64,000 nt of DNA from an uncultured Comamonas sp. (GTDB taxonomy: Bacteria > Pseudomonadota > Gammaproteobacteria > Burkholderiales > Burkholderiaceae_C). The stretch covers positions 1-64,000 of the forward strand of contig CABIIJ010000018.1 of NCBI GenBank assembly GCA_902175065.1, given 5' to 3'. Made by a program: the position numbers and the translations under genes. Positions 34,070 to 39,915 of the stretch are shown here, one piece after another (the stretch's first letter is position 1; each line of letters begins with the position of its first letter). The notes under the pieces were generated by a model. The model did not search any database. It was not told where the DNA came from and saw nothing but the letters and a program-made list of their open reading frames with translations.

Positions 34070-36127
34070 ATGCAAAAAACTCCCTCACCCGCCCCGGCGG
34101 GGCAATTCGTGCATTTCGACAATTCCCCGTTTGCGCTGTTCCAGCCTTATCCCCCGGCGGGCGATCAGCCCACGGCCATTGCGCAACTGGTCGAAGGCGT
34201 GCGCGACGGCGAATCCTTCCAGACGTTGCTGGGCGTGACGGGGTCGGGCAAGACTTTCACCATGGCCAACGTGATTGCCCGGCTGGGCCGCCCGGCCATC
34301 GTGTTTGCGCCGAACAAGACGCTGGCGGCGCAGCTCTACAGCGAGTTCCGCGAGTTCTTTCCCCAGAACGCGGTGGAGTATTTCGTCAGCTATTACGACT
34401 ATTACCAGCCCGAAGCCTACGTGCCGCAGCGCGATCTGTTCATCGAAAAAGACAGCGCCATCAACGAGCACATTGAGCAAATGCGCCTGTCCTGCACCAA
34501 AAGCCTGCTGGAGCGGCGCGATGTGATCATTGTGGCCACCGTCTCGGCCATCTATGGCATTGGCGAGCCGGAGAGCTACCACCAGATGGTGCTGATGCTG
34601 CGCGTGGGCGACCGCATTGCCCAGCGCGAGCTGATTGCCCAGCTGGTGCGGATGCAGTACCAGCGCAACGACGACGATTTCAGCCGGGGCAAGTTCCGCG
34701 TGCGCGGCGACACCATCGACGTGTTCCCGGCCGAGCATTCCGAGCTGGCCATCCGCATCGAGCTGTTCGACGACGAGGTGGACGGCCTGCAATTGTTCGA
34801 CCCGCTCACCGGCCAGGTGCAGCAGCGCATCCCGCGTTTTGCCGTCTATCCCAGCAGCCATTACGTCACCCCGCGCGACGTGGTGTTGCGGGCGGTGGAA
34901 ACGATCAAGGAAGAGCTGCACGAGCGTGTGGCCGAACTGGTCGGGGCGGGCAAGCTGGGGGAAGCACAGCGCCTGGAGCAGCGCACGCGGGTCGACCTGG
35001 AAATGCTGGCCGAGGTCGGGCACTGCAAGGGCATCGAGAACTATTCGCGCCACCTCTCCGGCGCCGCGCCGGGCGAGCCGCCGGCCACGCTGACCGACTA
35101 TCTGCCCAAGGATGCGCTGATGTTCCTGGACGAAAGCCACCAGATGATGGGCCAGCTCTCGGCCATGTACAACGGCGACCGCTCGCGCAAGACCACGCTG
35201 GTCGAATACGGCTTTCGCCTGCCGTCGGCGCTGGACAACCGGCCTTTGAAGCTCCAGGAGTTCGAGCAGCGGATGCGCCAGGCGATCTTCGTCTCGGCCA
35301 CGCCGGCGGATTATGAAAAGCAGCACAGCGGCCAGGTGGTCGAGCAGGTGGTGCGCCCGACCGGTCTGGTGGACCCTGAAATCGAAGTGCGCCCGGCCAG
35401 CAGCCAGGTCGATGATGTGCTGCAGGAAATCCGCCTGCGGGCGCAGCAGAACGAGCGGGTGCTGATCACCACGCTGACCAAGCGCATGGCCGAGCAGCTC
35501 ACCGAATACCTGAGCGAAAACGGCGTGCGCGTGCGCTATCTGCATTCCGATGTGGACACGGTCGAGCGCGTGGAAATCATCCGCGACCTGCGCCTGGGCG
35601 CCTTCGATGTGCTGGTGGGCATCAACCTGCTGCGCGAGGGGCTGGACATTCCCGAAGTCTCGCTGGTGGCGATTCTGGATGCCGACAAGGAAGGTTTCCT
35701 GCGGGCCGAGCGCAGCCTGATCCAGACCATTGGCCGCGCCGCCCGCAACCTGCACGGCAAGGCCATTCTGTATGCCGACCGCATCACCGACTCCATGCGC
35801 CGCGCCATCGACGAAACCGAGCGCCGCCGTGCCAGGCAAACGGCGTTCAACCTGGAGCACGGCATCGTGCCGAAGGCCATCGTCAAGCGGGTAAAGGATT
35901 TGATCGATGGTGTCTATAGCGACAAATCCCAGCAGCAAAGCCGCGAAGTGGCCCGCGCTGCGGCCGGGGCGCAGGCGGCGGCAGTGTTGTCCGAGGCCGA
36001 CCTGGCCAAGGAAATCAAGCGCGTGGAAAAAGACATGCTCGACTGTGCCAAGCGCCTGGAGTTCGAATCGGCCGCGCGGCTGCGTGATCAGCTGGCGGTG
36101 TTGAAAAATCAGTTGCTCGGGGTCTAG
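34070..36127 (+). CDS. uvrB: UvrABC system protein B
   Basis: A 685-residue UvrB, the helicase-like damage-verifying subunit of nucleotide excision repair. Walker A is [16 protein letters not shown]; the beta-hairpin region [28 protein letters not shown], the helicase motifs [17 protein letters not shown] and QTIGRAARN, and the C-terminal UVR motif ([20 protein letters not shown]...) that contacts UvrC are all present. It lacks a strong Shine-Dalgarno sequence at ATG 34070. I see no LexA-type box in the 39-bp gap to the TetR gene. The TAG stop lies in the CTAG that borders a MITE-like element. Confidence 0.97.
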
Positions 36128-36334: not shown

Positions 36335-36369
36335 TATCCGACTAGGTTATTGGGTTTTTGTGGTATAGT
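36335..36369 (+). promoter_or_regulatory. iscR promoter with candidate IscR type 1 site
   Basis: A good -10 hexamer TATAGT (36364-36369, preceded by TGG) has no good -35. About 20 bases upstream, TATCCGACTAGGTTATTGGG (36335-36354) resembles the left half of the IscR type 1 consensus (YYGACTR...), with a weaker right half. This suggests negative autoregulation by [2Fe-2S]-IscR, as in E. coli. Confidence 0.5.
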
Positions 36370-36486
36370 CCTACAAATCACTCAAGAAATAAAAAAACAC
36401 GGCTTCCAGCCTTGGACAAGGCTCTTTGGCGCAGGCCGGTTTTTCCGTTTTTGGGATTCTTGAACTCATTTCCAAAGGAGCTTGCG

Positions 36487-37023
36487 ATGCGTTTGACCAC
36501 CAAAGGCCGTTTTGCCGTTACTGCCATGATCGACCTGGCCTTGCGCCAGAACAGCGGCCCCGTCACTCTGGCGGCGATCAGCCAGCGCCAGCAAATTTCC
36601 CTGTCCTACCTGGAGCAGCTGTTCGGCAAACTGCGCCGCAACGAGCTGGTCGAGTCCACCCGCGGCCCCGGCGGCGGCTACACCCTGGCCCGCAAGGCGG
36701 CAGACATTACCGTCACCGACATCATCACCTCGGTGGACGAGCCGATCGACGCCACCCAGTGCGGTGGCAAGGAAAACTGCCTGGGCGAGCAGGGCCGCTG
36801 CATGACGCACGACCTGTGGGCCGCACTCAACCGCCATATGGTGGAGTTCCTCAACTCCGTCACCCTGCAAAAACTGGTGGAAGACCAGCTGGCCCGGGGC
36901 ATTCAGATCGAAGACAAGCCGGTGGTGCGCCGGGCGATTTCCTCGGCCCCGGTGGTCAAGCCCATCCGGGTGAACGCGCCCAATTCGGTTTTTGCCCTGG
37001 GCAACGCCTTCAACAAATCGTGA
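36487..37023 (+). CDS. iscR: Iron-sulfur cluster regulator IscR
   Basis: A 178-residue Rrf2-family regulator: [20 protein letters not shown] start, winged helix with [29 protein letters not shown], and the [2Fe-2S] ligand loop with C92, C98, C105 and a following His (CGGKENC...RCMTHDLW). In its holo form IscR represses isc genes; the apo form activates suf-type genes. The ATG at 36487 has AAAGGAG upstream. Its stop overlaps the preferred GTG start of iscS. All cluster ligands are intact, unlike the IscU-like protein two genes on. Confidence 0.95.
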
Positions 37024-38252
37024 GCGCCGTGCCGGTGCCGCGCAAGCGGCCTGTTTACCTCGACTACGCCGCCACCACGCCGGTCGACCCGCGCGTGGTG
37101 CAGGCCATGCTGCCCTGGCTGGCCGAGCACTTCGGCAACCCCGCTTCCAGCAGCCACGCCTGGGGCTGGGAGGCCGAGGAAGCCGTCGAGCAGGCCCGCA
37201 GCCACGTCGCCGCGCTGATCGGCGCCCAGGCGCGGGACATTGTCTGGACGAGCGGCGCCACCGAATCGGACAACCTGGCCATTACCGGCGCGGCCCTGGC
37301 CTACCAGGACAAGGGGCGGCACCTCATCACCGTCAAGACCGAGCACAAGGCCGTGCTGGACACCATGCGGGCGCTGGAAAGGCAGGGCTTCAGCGTGACC
37401 TGCCTGGACGTGCTGCCCAATGGCCTGCTGGATCTGGCGGCGCTGGAAGCGGCCTTGCGCCCGGACACCATTCTGGTCAGCGTCATGGCGGTGAACAACG
37501 AAATCGGCGTGGTGCAGGATTTGGCCGCCATCGGCCGCCTGTGCCGCGAGCGCGGCATCGTCTTTCACGTCGATGCGGCCCAGGCCAGCGGCAAGATCGC
37601 ACTGGACGTGCAGGCCACCCCGATCGACCTGATGAGCCTGGCCTCGCACAAAACCTATGGCCCCAAGGGCATCGGCGCCTTGTACGTGCGCCGCCAGCCG
37701 CGCGTGCGCCTGCAGGCGCAAATGCACGGCGGCGGGCATGAGCGCGGCTTGCGCTCGGGCACCTTGCCGACGCACCAGATCGTCGGCATGGGCGAAGCCT
37801 TCCGGCTGGCGAAGCTGGAAATGGCGCAGGACACGGCCCATGCGCAGCGCTTGCAGCAGCGCCTGCTGGCCGGGCTGGCCGATCTGGAGCAGGTCTTCCT
37901 CAATGGCGATGCCGTCCACCGGGTGCCGCACAACCTCAACTTCAGCTTTGCCCATATCGAAGGCGAAGCGCTCATGACCGGCGTGGCCGAGGTGGCGCTG
38001 TCCAGCGGCTCGGCCTGCACCTCGGCCAGCATTGAACCCAGCCATGTCCTGCGAGCCTTGGGACGCAGCGACGCGCTGGCGCACAGCAGCCTGCGCATCA
38101 GCTATGGCCGTTTCACCACCGAGGCGGACATCGACCAGGCCATCGGCAGCATCCGCGCCGCCGTACAGCATCTGCGCAGCCTGAGTCCCCTGTGGGATCT
38201 GCACCAGCAAGGTGTGGATGTTGCCAACATGGCGTGGCCCGCTTTCCTGTAA
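37020..38252 (+). CDS. iscS: Cysteine desulfurase IscS
   Basis: A 410-residue class V PLP enzyme that takes sulfur from cysteine for Fe-S clusters and tRNA thiolation. [36 protein letters not shown], the PLP lysine K211 in [12 protein letters not shown], and the active cysteine C333 in [10 protein letters not shown] are all present; the long group I mobile loop is kept. The GTG at 37020 overlaps the iscR TGA (GTGA), which suits translational coupling; GTGs at 37029 and 37035 are alternatives. It may be a general IscS or one serving this unusual locus. Confidence 0.93.
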
Positions 38253-38324: not shown

Positions 38325-38747
38325 ATGGCCTCTCCCGAGTATTCCGATCTGCTGCTGGAACATAGCCGCCACCCGCGCAACGCCGGGGCGTTTGCTGCGT
38401 CCGCACCGGACATCGGCACCGCCCTGGTGGGCACCCCGGAGAACGGGGCTGTCATCCAGCTGCAAATCCAGGTGCAGGCCGGGCTGCCCGCGCAGATCAA
38501 GGCCGCCCGCTTCAAGGCCTATGGCGATACCGCCACCATCGCCGCCGCATCGCTGATGACCGAGTGGCTGCACGGCAAAACCCTGGAGGAAGCGCAGCAG
38601 CTCACCAGCAGCGAGCTGGTGCAGGCGCTGGCTGTGCCCCCGGCACGGGTGTTCGGCGCCATGCTGGTGCAGGATGCCGTGCGCAGTGCCATCGCCCACT
38701 ACACCCGCCAGAATCCGGCCAGCCAGCAGTCCGCCGCACTCTCATGA
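38325..38747 (+). CDS. IscU/NifU-N-like protein lacking all cluster-ligand cysteines
   Basis: A 140-residue protein with an unmistakable IscU fold signature: HPRNAGAF, VGTPENGAVIQLQIQV, AARFKAYGDTATIAAASLMT, EWLHGKTLEEAQ, and LAVPPARVFGAMLVQDAV. Compared with IscU of E. coli, C37 is Asn (N40), D39 is Ala (A42), C63 is Asp (D68), H105 is Phe (F110) and C106 is Gly (G111), so no [2Fe-2S] cluster can be built in the usual site. There is also no Cys in the whole chain. The LPPVK chaperone-recognition motif survives only as VPPAR. It lies 72 bp after iscS and overlaps or nearly meets iscA. It might regulate or escort IscS, or act on tRNA sulfur transfer; function is unknown. ATG 38325 lacks a clear ribosome-binding site. 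Confidence 0.85.
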   Translation: MASPEYSDLLLEHSRHPRNAGAFAASAPDIGTALVGTPENGAVIQLQIQVQAGLPAQIKAARFKAYGDTATIAAASLMTEWLHGKTLEEAQQLTSSELVQALAVPPARVFGAMLVQDAVRSAIAHYTRQNPASQQSAALS

Positions 38748-38764
38748 CAAGGAAACGCATCACC

Positions 38765-39091
38765 ATGACCACCATCACCCTGACCGAAGCCGCCGCCCGC
38801 CATGTCGCCCAGCACCTGCAGCGCCGCGGGCATGGCGTGGGCGTGCGCCTGGGCATCAAAACCACCGGCTGCTCCGGCTTTGCCTACCAGCTGGACTACG
38901 TCGATGAGGCCGCCGCCAACGACGTCGTGTTCGAGCAGCACGGCACCAAGCTCATCGTCGCACCGGAAAACCTCGCCGTGCTGGACGGCACCGAAGTGGA
39001 CTTCGTGCGCAACGGCCTGAACGAAAGCTTCCAGTTCAAAAACCCCAACGAACGCGATCGCTGCGGCTGCGGCGAAAGCTTCCGCGTCTAA
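38765..39091 (+). CDS. iscA: A-type iron-sulfur carrier (IscA-like)
   Basis: A 108-residue HesB/IscA family protein with the three conserved cysteines C36 (KTTGCSGFAY), C100 and C102 (DRCGCGESF). It accepts and delivers Fe-S clusters, chiefly [4Fe-4S]. AAGGAAA lies about 11 bases before ATG 38765; an alternative ATG at 38744 overlaps the upstream stop (ATGA) and would add seven residues. It ends the isc-like operon; hscB, hscA and fdx, which follow iscA in a full isc operon, are absent. Confidence 0.92.
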   Translation: MTTITLTEAAARHVAQHLQRRGHGVGVRLGIKTTGCSGFAYQLDYVDEAAANDVVFEQHGTKLIVAPENLAVLDGTEVDFVRNGLNESFQFKNPNERDRCGCGESFRV

Positions 39092-39100
39092 TTAAAAAAA

Positions 39101-39178
39101 TAGCTGTTTCCACATGCTGTTAAATAATTTCAGATATAAAACATGCTGAAAATAAGCAATAGCCAGTGGAATAAGCTA
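39101..39178. repeat. 78-bp TAGCT palindromic repeat, copy 5
   Basis: Arms TAGCTGTTTCCACA (39101-39114) and AGTGGAATAAGCTA (39165-39178), with the ATTTCAGATA core. It occupies the gap between iscA and the exonuclease gene, 9 bp past the iscA stop. Confidence 0.75.
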
Positions 39179-39195
39179 TAAAAAATAAATAATTC

Positions 39196-39915
39196 ATGCA
39201 ACGCATCATCGTTCTGGATACTGAAACCACCGGCCTGTCGCCCGAGAACGGCGACCGGGTGATCGAACTGGGCTGCGTCGAGCTGGTCGCACGCAAGCTC
39301 ACCGGCAACAATCTGCACCTGTACTTCAACCCGGAGCGCGACAGCCACGAAGATGCCCTGCGCATCCACGGCCTGACGACCGAGTTCCTGAGCGACAAGC
39401 CCAAGTTCGCACAAAAAGCGCAGGACATCCTGACCTACCTGCAAGGGGCGCAACTGGTCATCCACAATGCGCCTTTCGACGTCGGGTTTCTGGACAAGGA
39501 GCTGTCCCTGCTCGGCCTGCCGCCACTGAAAACCTACGTCAGCGATGTCACCGACTCCCTGGCCATGGCCAAGGACCTGTTCCCCGGCAAACGCAACTCC
39601 CTGGACGCCCTGTGCGACCGCCTGGGCGTGGACAACAGCGGCCGCACCCTGCACGGCGCCCTGCTGGATGCCGAGCTGCTGGCCGACGTCTACATCTACA
39701 TGACCCGTGGCCAGCACGCCCTGCTGGGCGATGACGGCCTGGGCGGCGGCTTCGGCGCGGGGGACGACGCCCGCAACCGGATCGACCTGCGCCAGTTTGA
39801 CTTGCCCATACTGCAAGCCACGCCCCATGAGCTGGCCGCTCATGCCGAAGCCCTGGAGGCCATCGATAAAGCCAGCAAAGGAAAAACTATCTGGCGCAAC
39901 CTGGATGCCGCATGA
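39196..39915 (+). CDS. dnaQ: DnaQ-family 3'-5' exonuclease (Pol III epsilon)
   Basis: A 239-residue DEDDh exonuclease: Exo I VLDTETTGLSPENGDRVIEL, Exo II LVIHNAPFDVGFLDKEL and Exo III LHGALLDAELLADVYIYM with the catalytic His. RVIELGCVEL and the C-terminal tail length fit the proofreading epsilon subunit of DNA polymerase III. It starts 17 bp after a palindromic repeat with no clear Shine-Dalgarno sequence and lies upstream of the tRNA pair. Confidence 0.93.
   Translation: MQRIIVLDTETTGLSPENGDRVIELGCVELVARKLTGNNLHLYFNPERDSHEDALRIHGLTTEFLSDKPKFAQKAQDILTYLQGAQLVIHNAPFDVGFLDKELSLLGLPPLKTYVSDVTDSLAMAKDLFPGKRNSLDALCDRLGVDNSGRTLHGALLDAELLADVYIYMTRGQHALLGDDGLGGGFGAGDDARNRIDLRQFDLPILQATPHELAAHAEALEAIDKASKGKTIWRNLDAA

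Follow-up and report, generated by a model that had tools for sequence, protein, structure and literature searches.

A cysteine-free IscU homologue in the isc locus of an uncultured Comamonas and altered IscU proteins in related genomes

The isc locus and its IscU homologue

The window, that is, the whole stretch of DNA analysed, comprises 64,000 nucleotides of contig CABIIJ010000018.1 from an uncultured Comamonas sp. (GenBank assembly GCA_902175065.1, genome G000 in our set). It carries an isc locus on the forward strand in the order uvrB-iscR-iscS-iscU-iscA-dnaQ, of which iscU is an altered form. The upstream boundary is uvrB (34070..36127, forward strand, named by reading rather than family search), which neighbours isc in canonical and altered loci alike, wherever the contig extends that far. 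The product of iscR (36487..37023, forward) belongs to Pfam Rrf2, scores 211.3 bits against TIGR02010 (cut-off 207.55) and, read by eye, retains its three cluster cysteines in a stretch of 19 residues. Next comes iscS (37029..38252, forward; start position uncertain by a few codons), with 651.1 bits against TIGR02006 (cut-off 643.2), an intact active-site loop of 10 residues and a retained C-terminal SPLWDL tail. The iscA product (38765..39091, forward; Pfam Fe-S_biosyn) reaches 150.5 bits against a TIGR02011 cut-off of 150.6 and keeps CGCGESF, again read by eye. A preliminary description of this DNA had called the iscS and iscA neighbours intact, and the active-site loop and CGCGESF agree with it.

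A TATAGT-containing stretch at window positions 36340-36410, upstream of iscR, is shared with G016 and G009 and weakly resembles the consensus of an IscR type 1 site. Scored against that consensus, the best candidate sites upstream of iscR reach 17-22 of 25 in 19 genomes. The candidate in the window scores 18, where 300 shuffles gave a mean of 15.7 and a maximum of 19; stronger matches (21-22 of 25) occur in genus g96.

A dnaQ-like exonuclease gene (39196..39915, forward, named by reading) directly follows iscA and forms the downstream boundary. Comparison with the canonical Comamonas G018 marks 39092..39195 (forward) as the place of the absent hscB-hscA-fdx. G018 has about 3.2 kb there (L048 5203-8425) and the order iscR-iscS-iscU-iscA-hscB-hscA-fdx between the same flanking genes (HscB confirmed by PF07743; hscA and fdx named by reading), so the window's locus is about 3 kb shorter. 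A genome-wide profile search found no HscB in the window's genome, and cyaY was not found there either; fdx is absent from the isc locus, the region examined for it. The best match to the HscA model in this genome, at 616.4 bits under a cut-off of 708.6, is read as DnaK. That hscBA and fdx are missing had been noted before, and the comparison bears this out.

Between iscS and iscA, at 38325..38747 on the forward strand, lies the altered iscU, an intact open frame that translates into 140 amino acids with zero cysteines. Pfam NifU_N matches residues 5-130 with 90.9 bits (cut-off 22), in agreement with the full-length homology to IscU claimed earlier, and the protein thus has the full-length fold domain of the IscU family as well as the position between iscS and iscA expected of a scaffold gene. 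Against NCBIfam iscU (TIGR01999) it scores 114.2 bits, under the equivalog cut-off of 192.4. It lacks the three cysteine ligands and D39 of a TIGR01999-type scaffold, having N-A-D-F-G for C-D-C-H-C: N40, A42, D68, F110 and G111 align to E. coli C37, D39, C63, H105 and C106, that is, C37N, D39A, C63D, H105F and C106G in E. coli numbering. The E. coli reference behind these assignments agrees with alignments to solved IscU chains. The LPPVK motif, which binds HscA, is replaced by VPPAR, and HscB, a partner of that motif, was not found. These replacements, the missing cysteines and the changed motif are as first described.

By sequence, the top solved relatives are IscU and ISCU chains, the nearest being 2kqk (100.9 bits), the apo-IscU(D39A) of E. 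coli. An AlphaFold2 model built from three input sequences (mean pLDDT 73.2; residues 1-21 and 135-140 below 50) has the IscU fold. ISCU/IscU chains lead its Foldseek matches, and 3lvl, the E. coli IscS-IscU complex, ranks 13.

Several simple explanations can be set aside. A sequencing error or local mutation is ruled out because the two nearest relatives, at 91% and 71% identity, have lost the same five residues; whether close relatives hold the cysteines was a check that the preliminary description had proposed. It had also proposed a search for a canonical iscU-hscBA-fdx locus elsewhere in the genome, and SufU is the sole further NifU_N match, which rules out a second, canonical iscU. The window protein is not itself a SufU, as it has no cysteine and does not lie in a suf operon.

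The SUF system and the loss of cluster ligands

The suf genes of the window's genome, located away from the isc locus, are sufB-sufC-sufD-sufS-sufU and a sufT-like gene (SufB confirmed by TIGR01980, the other names by reading). The encoded SufU, in the suf locus on contig C93, is a separate protein that bears cysteines. The locus as first pictured is real, but that picture overlooked the SUF system and the absence of hscB and cyaY.

Within Comamonas, the window protein finds matches in 51 of 53 genomes, and SufB occurs in six (G000, G009, G016, G026, G031 and G039). Among the 33 matched IscUs that were read, alterations are confined to the six SufB-bearing genomes and present in every one of them, and C-D-C-H-C occurs in the remaining 27; the identity of the 18 unread IscUs to the window protein is 40-43%, as it is for the canonical proteins. 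Across the wider family, the window protein has matches in 393 of 399 genomes and SufB exceeds its cut-off in 54. We sampled 74 genomes of the family for HscB, 59 with SUF and 15 without, and failed to find it in 20/59 of the former versus 0/15 of the latter. In five of these 20 (G146, G159, G323, G389 and G394) the sole match is weak and lies on the suf contig; we take it to be SufU. Fourteen of the 15 HscB-minus genomes that retain IscU have lost C37 and D39. The 66 further IscUs of this comparison have intact ligands, and so do all 39 SUF-bearing genomes with HscB. CyaY follows HscB: searches of 19 of the 20 HscB-minus genomes yielded none, G323 (85% complete) alone having it, and it was present in 20/20 comparison genomes with canonical IscU. 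Co-occurrence of cyaY and hscBA has been reported earlier (PMC4440780). Of 19 HscB-minus genomes searched for IscS, 17 have it; it was not found in G323 and G394.

The one HscB-minus genome with intact IscU ligands is G370, which has SUF and in which neither HscB nor CyaY was found. Its contig (L142, G370:C210) breaks off shortly after iscA begins, so that hscBA-fdx would not be visible there; CyaY is also not found, so it may be a true exception. G370 is possibly a transitional state or an assembly gap. The best-supported cause of ligand loss within the family is takeover by SUF together with loss of HscBA, CyaY and, at the locus, Fdx; the cluster-holding residues were apparently lost because SUF took over.

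Ligand loss is independent and has occurred at least four times in the family. A UvrB tree of 22 rows (G026 left out, having no UvrB on its contig; the G016 row 29% filled) needs four changes to account for it, and its starred branches force four. Within g71 and within g5, altered genomes have intact sisters from their own genus; the altered clade of g1 has the intact G025 and G014 as its sisters, with the intact G018 elsewhere on a weak branch; in g96, all five sampled SUF-bearing genomes are altered. The case in the window is not unique, a recurrence that the preliminary description missed, and the loss is not the even one that it saw. Among the 14 altered proteins, C37 and D39 are lost in all, C63 in 12, C106 in six (the window protein, G016, G009, G320, G382 and G403) and H105 in three. 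G039 and G026 retain C63, H105 and C106, G031 retains H105 and C106, and none of the five residues is left in G000, G016 or G009. The losses appear in series along the Comamonas clade, whose tree order is G039, G031 and then the G000/G016/G009 group. As read from the sequences of relatives, the order of loss is C37/D39, then C63, then C106/H105, with the window's clade as the end state.

H105 and C106 are retained together in 8/14 altered proteins after C37/D39 are gone, a pattern that would suit a sulfur relay in which C106 takes persulfide from IscS and passes it on in the manner of SufU or TusA. The window protein, having no cysteine, cannot work in this way, and the five other losses of C106 speak against the idea elsewhere. 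C106 is moreover buried in E. coli IscU (PMC2854127), so its retention may be structural. We regard a relay as very improbable for the altered proteins as a group, and it is ruled out for the window protein.

The emptied site may also have been repacked. S107A, S65A, S69A and T60A each occur in three genera of altered proteins and C63S in four; S107A is present in 12/14. Parallel changes in three genera also affect other positions, among them K115R, V73L and V118I, so convergence by itself does not set the cluster site apart. In E. coli IscU, the laboratory variants D39A and S107A favour the structured state, and Y11A and K89A favour disorder (PMC13423590). The window protein naturally has alanine at both 39 and 107; it additionally has Y11S and K89T, which lie near the disorder-favouring changes.

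Selection on the altered protein and its tie to IscS

Pairwise codon modelling (GY94 form, F3x4, custom script) covered seven pairs of altered IscU. For four pairs that span three genera, omega was 0.139 (G000/G016), 0.135 (G031/G039), 0.141 (G320/G382) and 0.149 (G227/G368), with likelihood-ratio statistics against omega=1 of 27.3, 52.8, 37.3 and 44.5 and p values of 1.8e-7, 3.7e-13, 1.0e-9 and 2.5e-11, in the same order. Neutrality is rejected in six of the seven pairs, two of which, both with G009, are saturated; it is not rejected for G147/G439 (LRT 3.7, p=0.053), a pair that is too close. A rerun trimmed to the BLAST matches gave 0.110, 0.118, 0.089 and 0.113 for the four main pairs, and some distant pairs gave higher or unstable values (G000/G039, 0.68 by NG86 and 0.17 by ML). 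Three canonical IscU pairs have omega of 0.031, 0.009 and 0.067, so that the altered proteins stand about two- to sixteenfold higher. None of the 14 altered iscU genes read has a broken frame. With omega in close pairs not near 1 and 14/14 frames open, a pseudogene is ruled out. These are the dN/dS and frame checks that the preliminary description had called for, and its claim that the gene is not decaying holds as far as neutrality is concerned (omega about 0.14, p=1.8e-7 for G000/G016).

The constraint has nevertheless loosened. In the canonical pair G276/G229, IscU is the second-most conserved of six proteins (91.7%, with IscS at 87.2% and IscA at 89.5%); between G403 and G276 it is the least conserved (76.7%, with IscS at 91.7% and IscA at 88.6%). 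Among the proteins compared, IscU ranks last in conservation in 4/4 altered and 3/3 altered-to-intact pairs. Taken together, raised omega and low IscU identity with neutrality rejected indicate a constraint that is relaxed but real. The main rival to an IscS-binding role starts from here: IscU may have become nearly dispensable after SUF, with weak selection for harmless folding and eventual loss. The fall in conservation rank and the raised omega fit such slow decay, as do three genomes (G146, G159 and G389; loci L167, L165 and L166) with iscR-iscS-iscA and no iscU. It has to contend with the rejection of neutrality in three genera, with the open frames, and with four genomes (G147, G320, G382 and G439) in which iscA is gone from the isc locus and the altered iscU remains directly before dnaQ. 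On balance we consider slow decay unlikely, if a serious contender. The loci of these four, all g96 genomes, are L135, L137, L138 and L139.

The same four genomes bear on two further explanations. The gene could be a relic of operon structure, its frame kept for translation coupling to iscA, given that it lies between iscS and iscA in 10/14 genomes. Selection acts on the amino acids, however, and in the other four the gene has survived at the locus without iscA; we find this reading hardly credible. Alternatively, the altered protein might bind a client other than IscS, such as a SUF component, IscA or IscR: SUF co-occurs with it, and iscA and iscR share its operon. No sequence sign of such a client was found and its retention does not need an iscA at the locus, which leaves this option quite improbable.

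The E. coli IscU makes contact with helix 12 of its IscS (R379-K391), IscS without residues 376-404 fails to bind IscU, and IscU binding is likewise lost on removal of its residues 1-12 and disrupted by K103E (PMC2854127). Against this background, the IscS tail motif (L/I)SPL, which lies in that helix, is retained in all 14 genomes with an altered IscU and absent from all three that have iscS and iscA and no IscU (G146, G159 and G389). Against a tie to IscS, the end of the tail beyond SPL is gone in G009, G031, G039 and G026. In G026 (L041, G026:C406, 1-1497), whose contig begins inside iscS, IscS and the altered IscU lie in one open frame as a natural fusion; its IscU has no N-terminal helix, for which the fusion to IscS could stand in.

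The contact residues give a mixed picture. K59 is retained in 13/14 altered proteins and K or R at 103 in 12/14; the K42 position is K or R in only 8/14, and Y11, T60 and G64 are mostly lost. The non-contact K80 is retained in 12/14, equal to K103. The test covered 11 published IscS contacts, with C63 set aside; they are retained no more strongly (mean 0.64) than the remaining invariant positions (0.60), and 32% of random position sets score as high. Special conservation of the contact residues was thus tested and not found, a further point that fits slow decay. The IscS tail, as far as sequence comparison goes, supports reading the altered IscU as an IscS partner; the contact residues do not stand out.

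A putative ligand-free partner of IscS

We favour, with a probability of roughly 55%, the reading that altered IscU is no longer a scaffold after the SUF takeover and is kept as a ligand-free partner of IscS. An ancestor would have had or gained a SUF system; SUF co-occurs with ligand loss, and that it came first is our inference. Next, hscB, hscA and fdx were deleted between iscA and dnaQ, as the locus shows, and cyaY would have been lost, as its absence suggests. The cluster site was given up in the repeatable order seen across relatives. With no HscBA to empty it, an IscU that went on loading sulfur and iron would act as a dead-end sink, so that loss of the ligands may have been advantageous. 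What remained has stayed under purifying selection, as the codon analysis shows, and persists even where iscA has left the locus. Finally, the protein would have retained IscS binding, its ligand-free subunit occupying the IscU site and setting the share of persulfide that reaches other candidate acceptors, for example TusA or ThiI. The E. coli IscU competes with TusA for IscS and displaces it, acceptors binding singly (PMC2854127).

The second job proposed in the preliminary description stands in part. It offered three candidates in place of decay: an IscS-binding modulator is the most economical reading of these sequences, a sulfur relay is impossible for a protein without cysteine, and no finding points to a regulator read by IscR.

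More tentatively, and at less than even odds, the repeated cases may reflect a convergent "pseudo-scaffold". Given SUF takeover and loss of HscBA in this family, IscU would become a gate or stabiliser devoted to binding IscS, its site repacked and its structured state favoured now that opening by HscA is no longer required. Whether the disordered state of IscU is functional, serving HscA, or an artefact of a crowded cysteine site is still debated (PMC13423590).

Altered IscU resembles proteobacterial IscU (E. coli IscU; TIGR01999) in fold, operon place and purifying selection, and the canonical Comamonas IscUs listed are 40-43% identical to the window protein. It differs in having no cluster ligand, in VPPAR for LPPVK, and in a genome where HscB and CyaY were not found and hscBA-fdx is absent from the locus. 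SufU, a zinc-dependent sulfurtransferase, shares the NifU_N fold and is encoded in the genome's own suf locus; unlike it, the window protein has no cysteine and its gene adjoins iscS. CyaY/frataxin and IscX are modulators that bind IscS jointly with IscU (PMC2854127). By analogy, altered IscU may likewise act as a non-acceptor protein bound to IscS, although they belong to other families and cyaY was not found in the window's genome.

A ligand-less IscU is thus neither unique to the window's genome nor a pseudogene. We found no prior description of one in titles or opening abstracts, a search that lay mostly outside subscription journals, and to our knowledge the IscU active site is commonly treated as invariant. 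For annotation this is a warning, since a match to IscU does not equal a working ISC system. For the family, it amounts to a natural experiment with at least four replicates, in which HscB was lost, the site was lost and the protein was retained. These proteins allow us to ask what IscU does for IscS beyond clusters, and whether loss of the chaperone lets IscU become fully structured.
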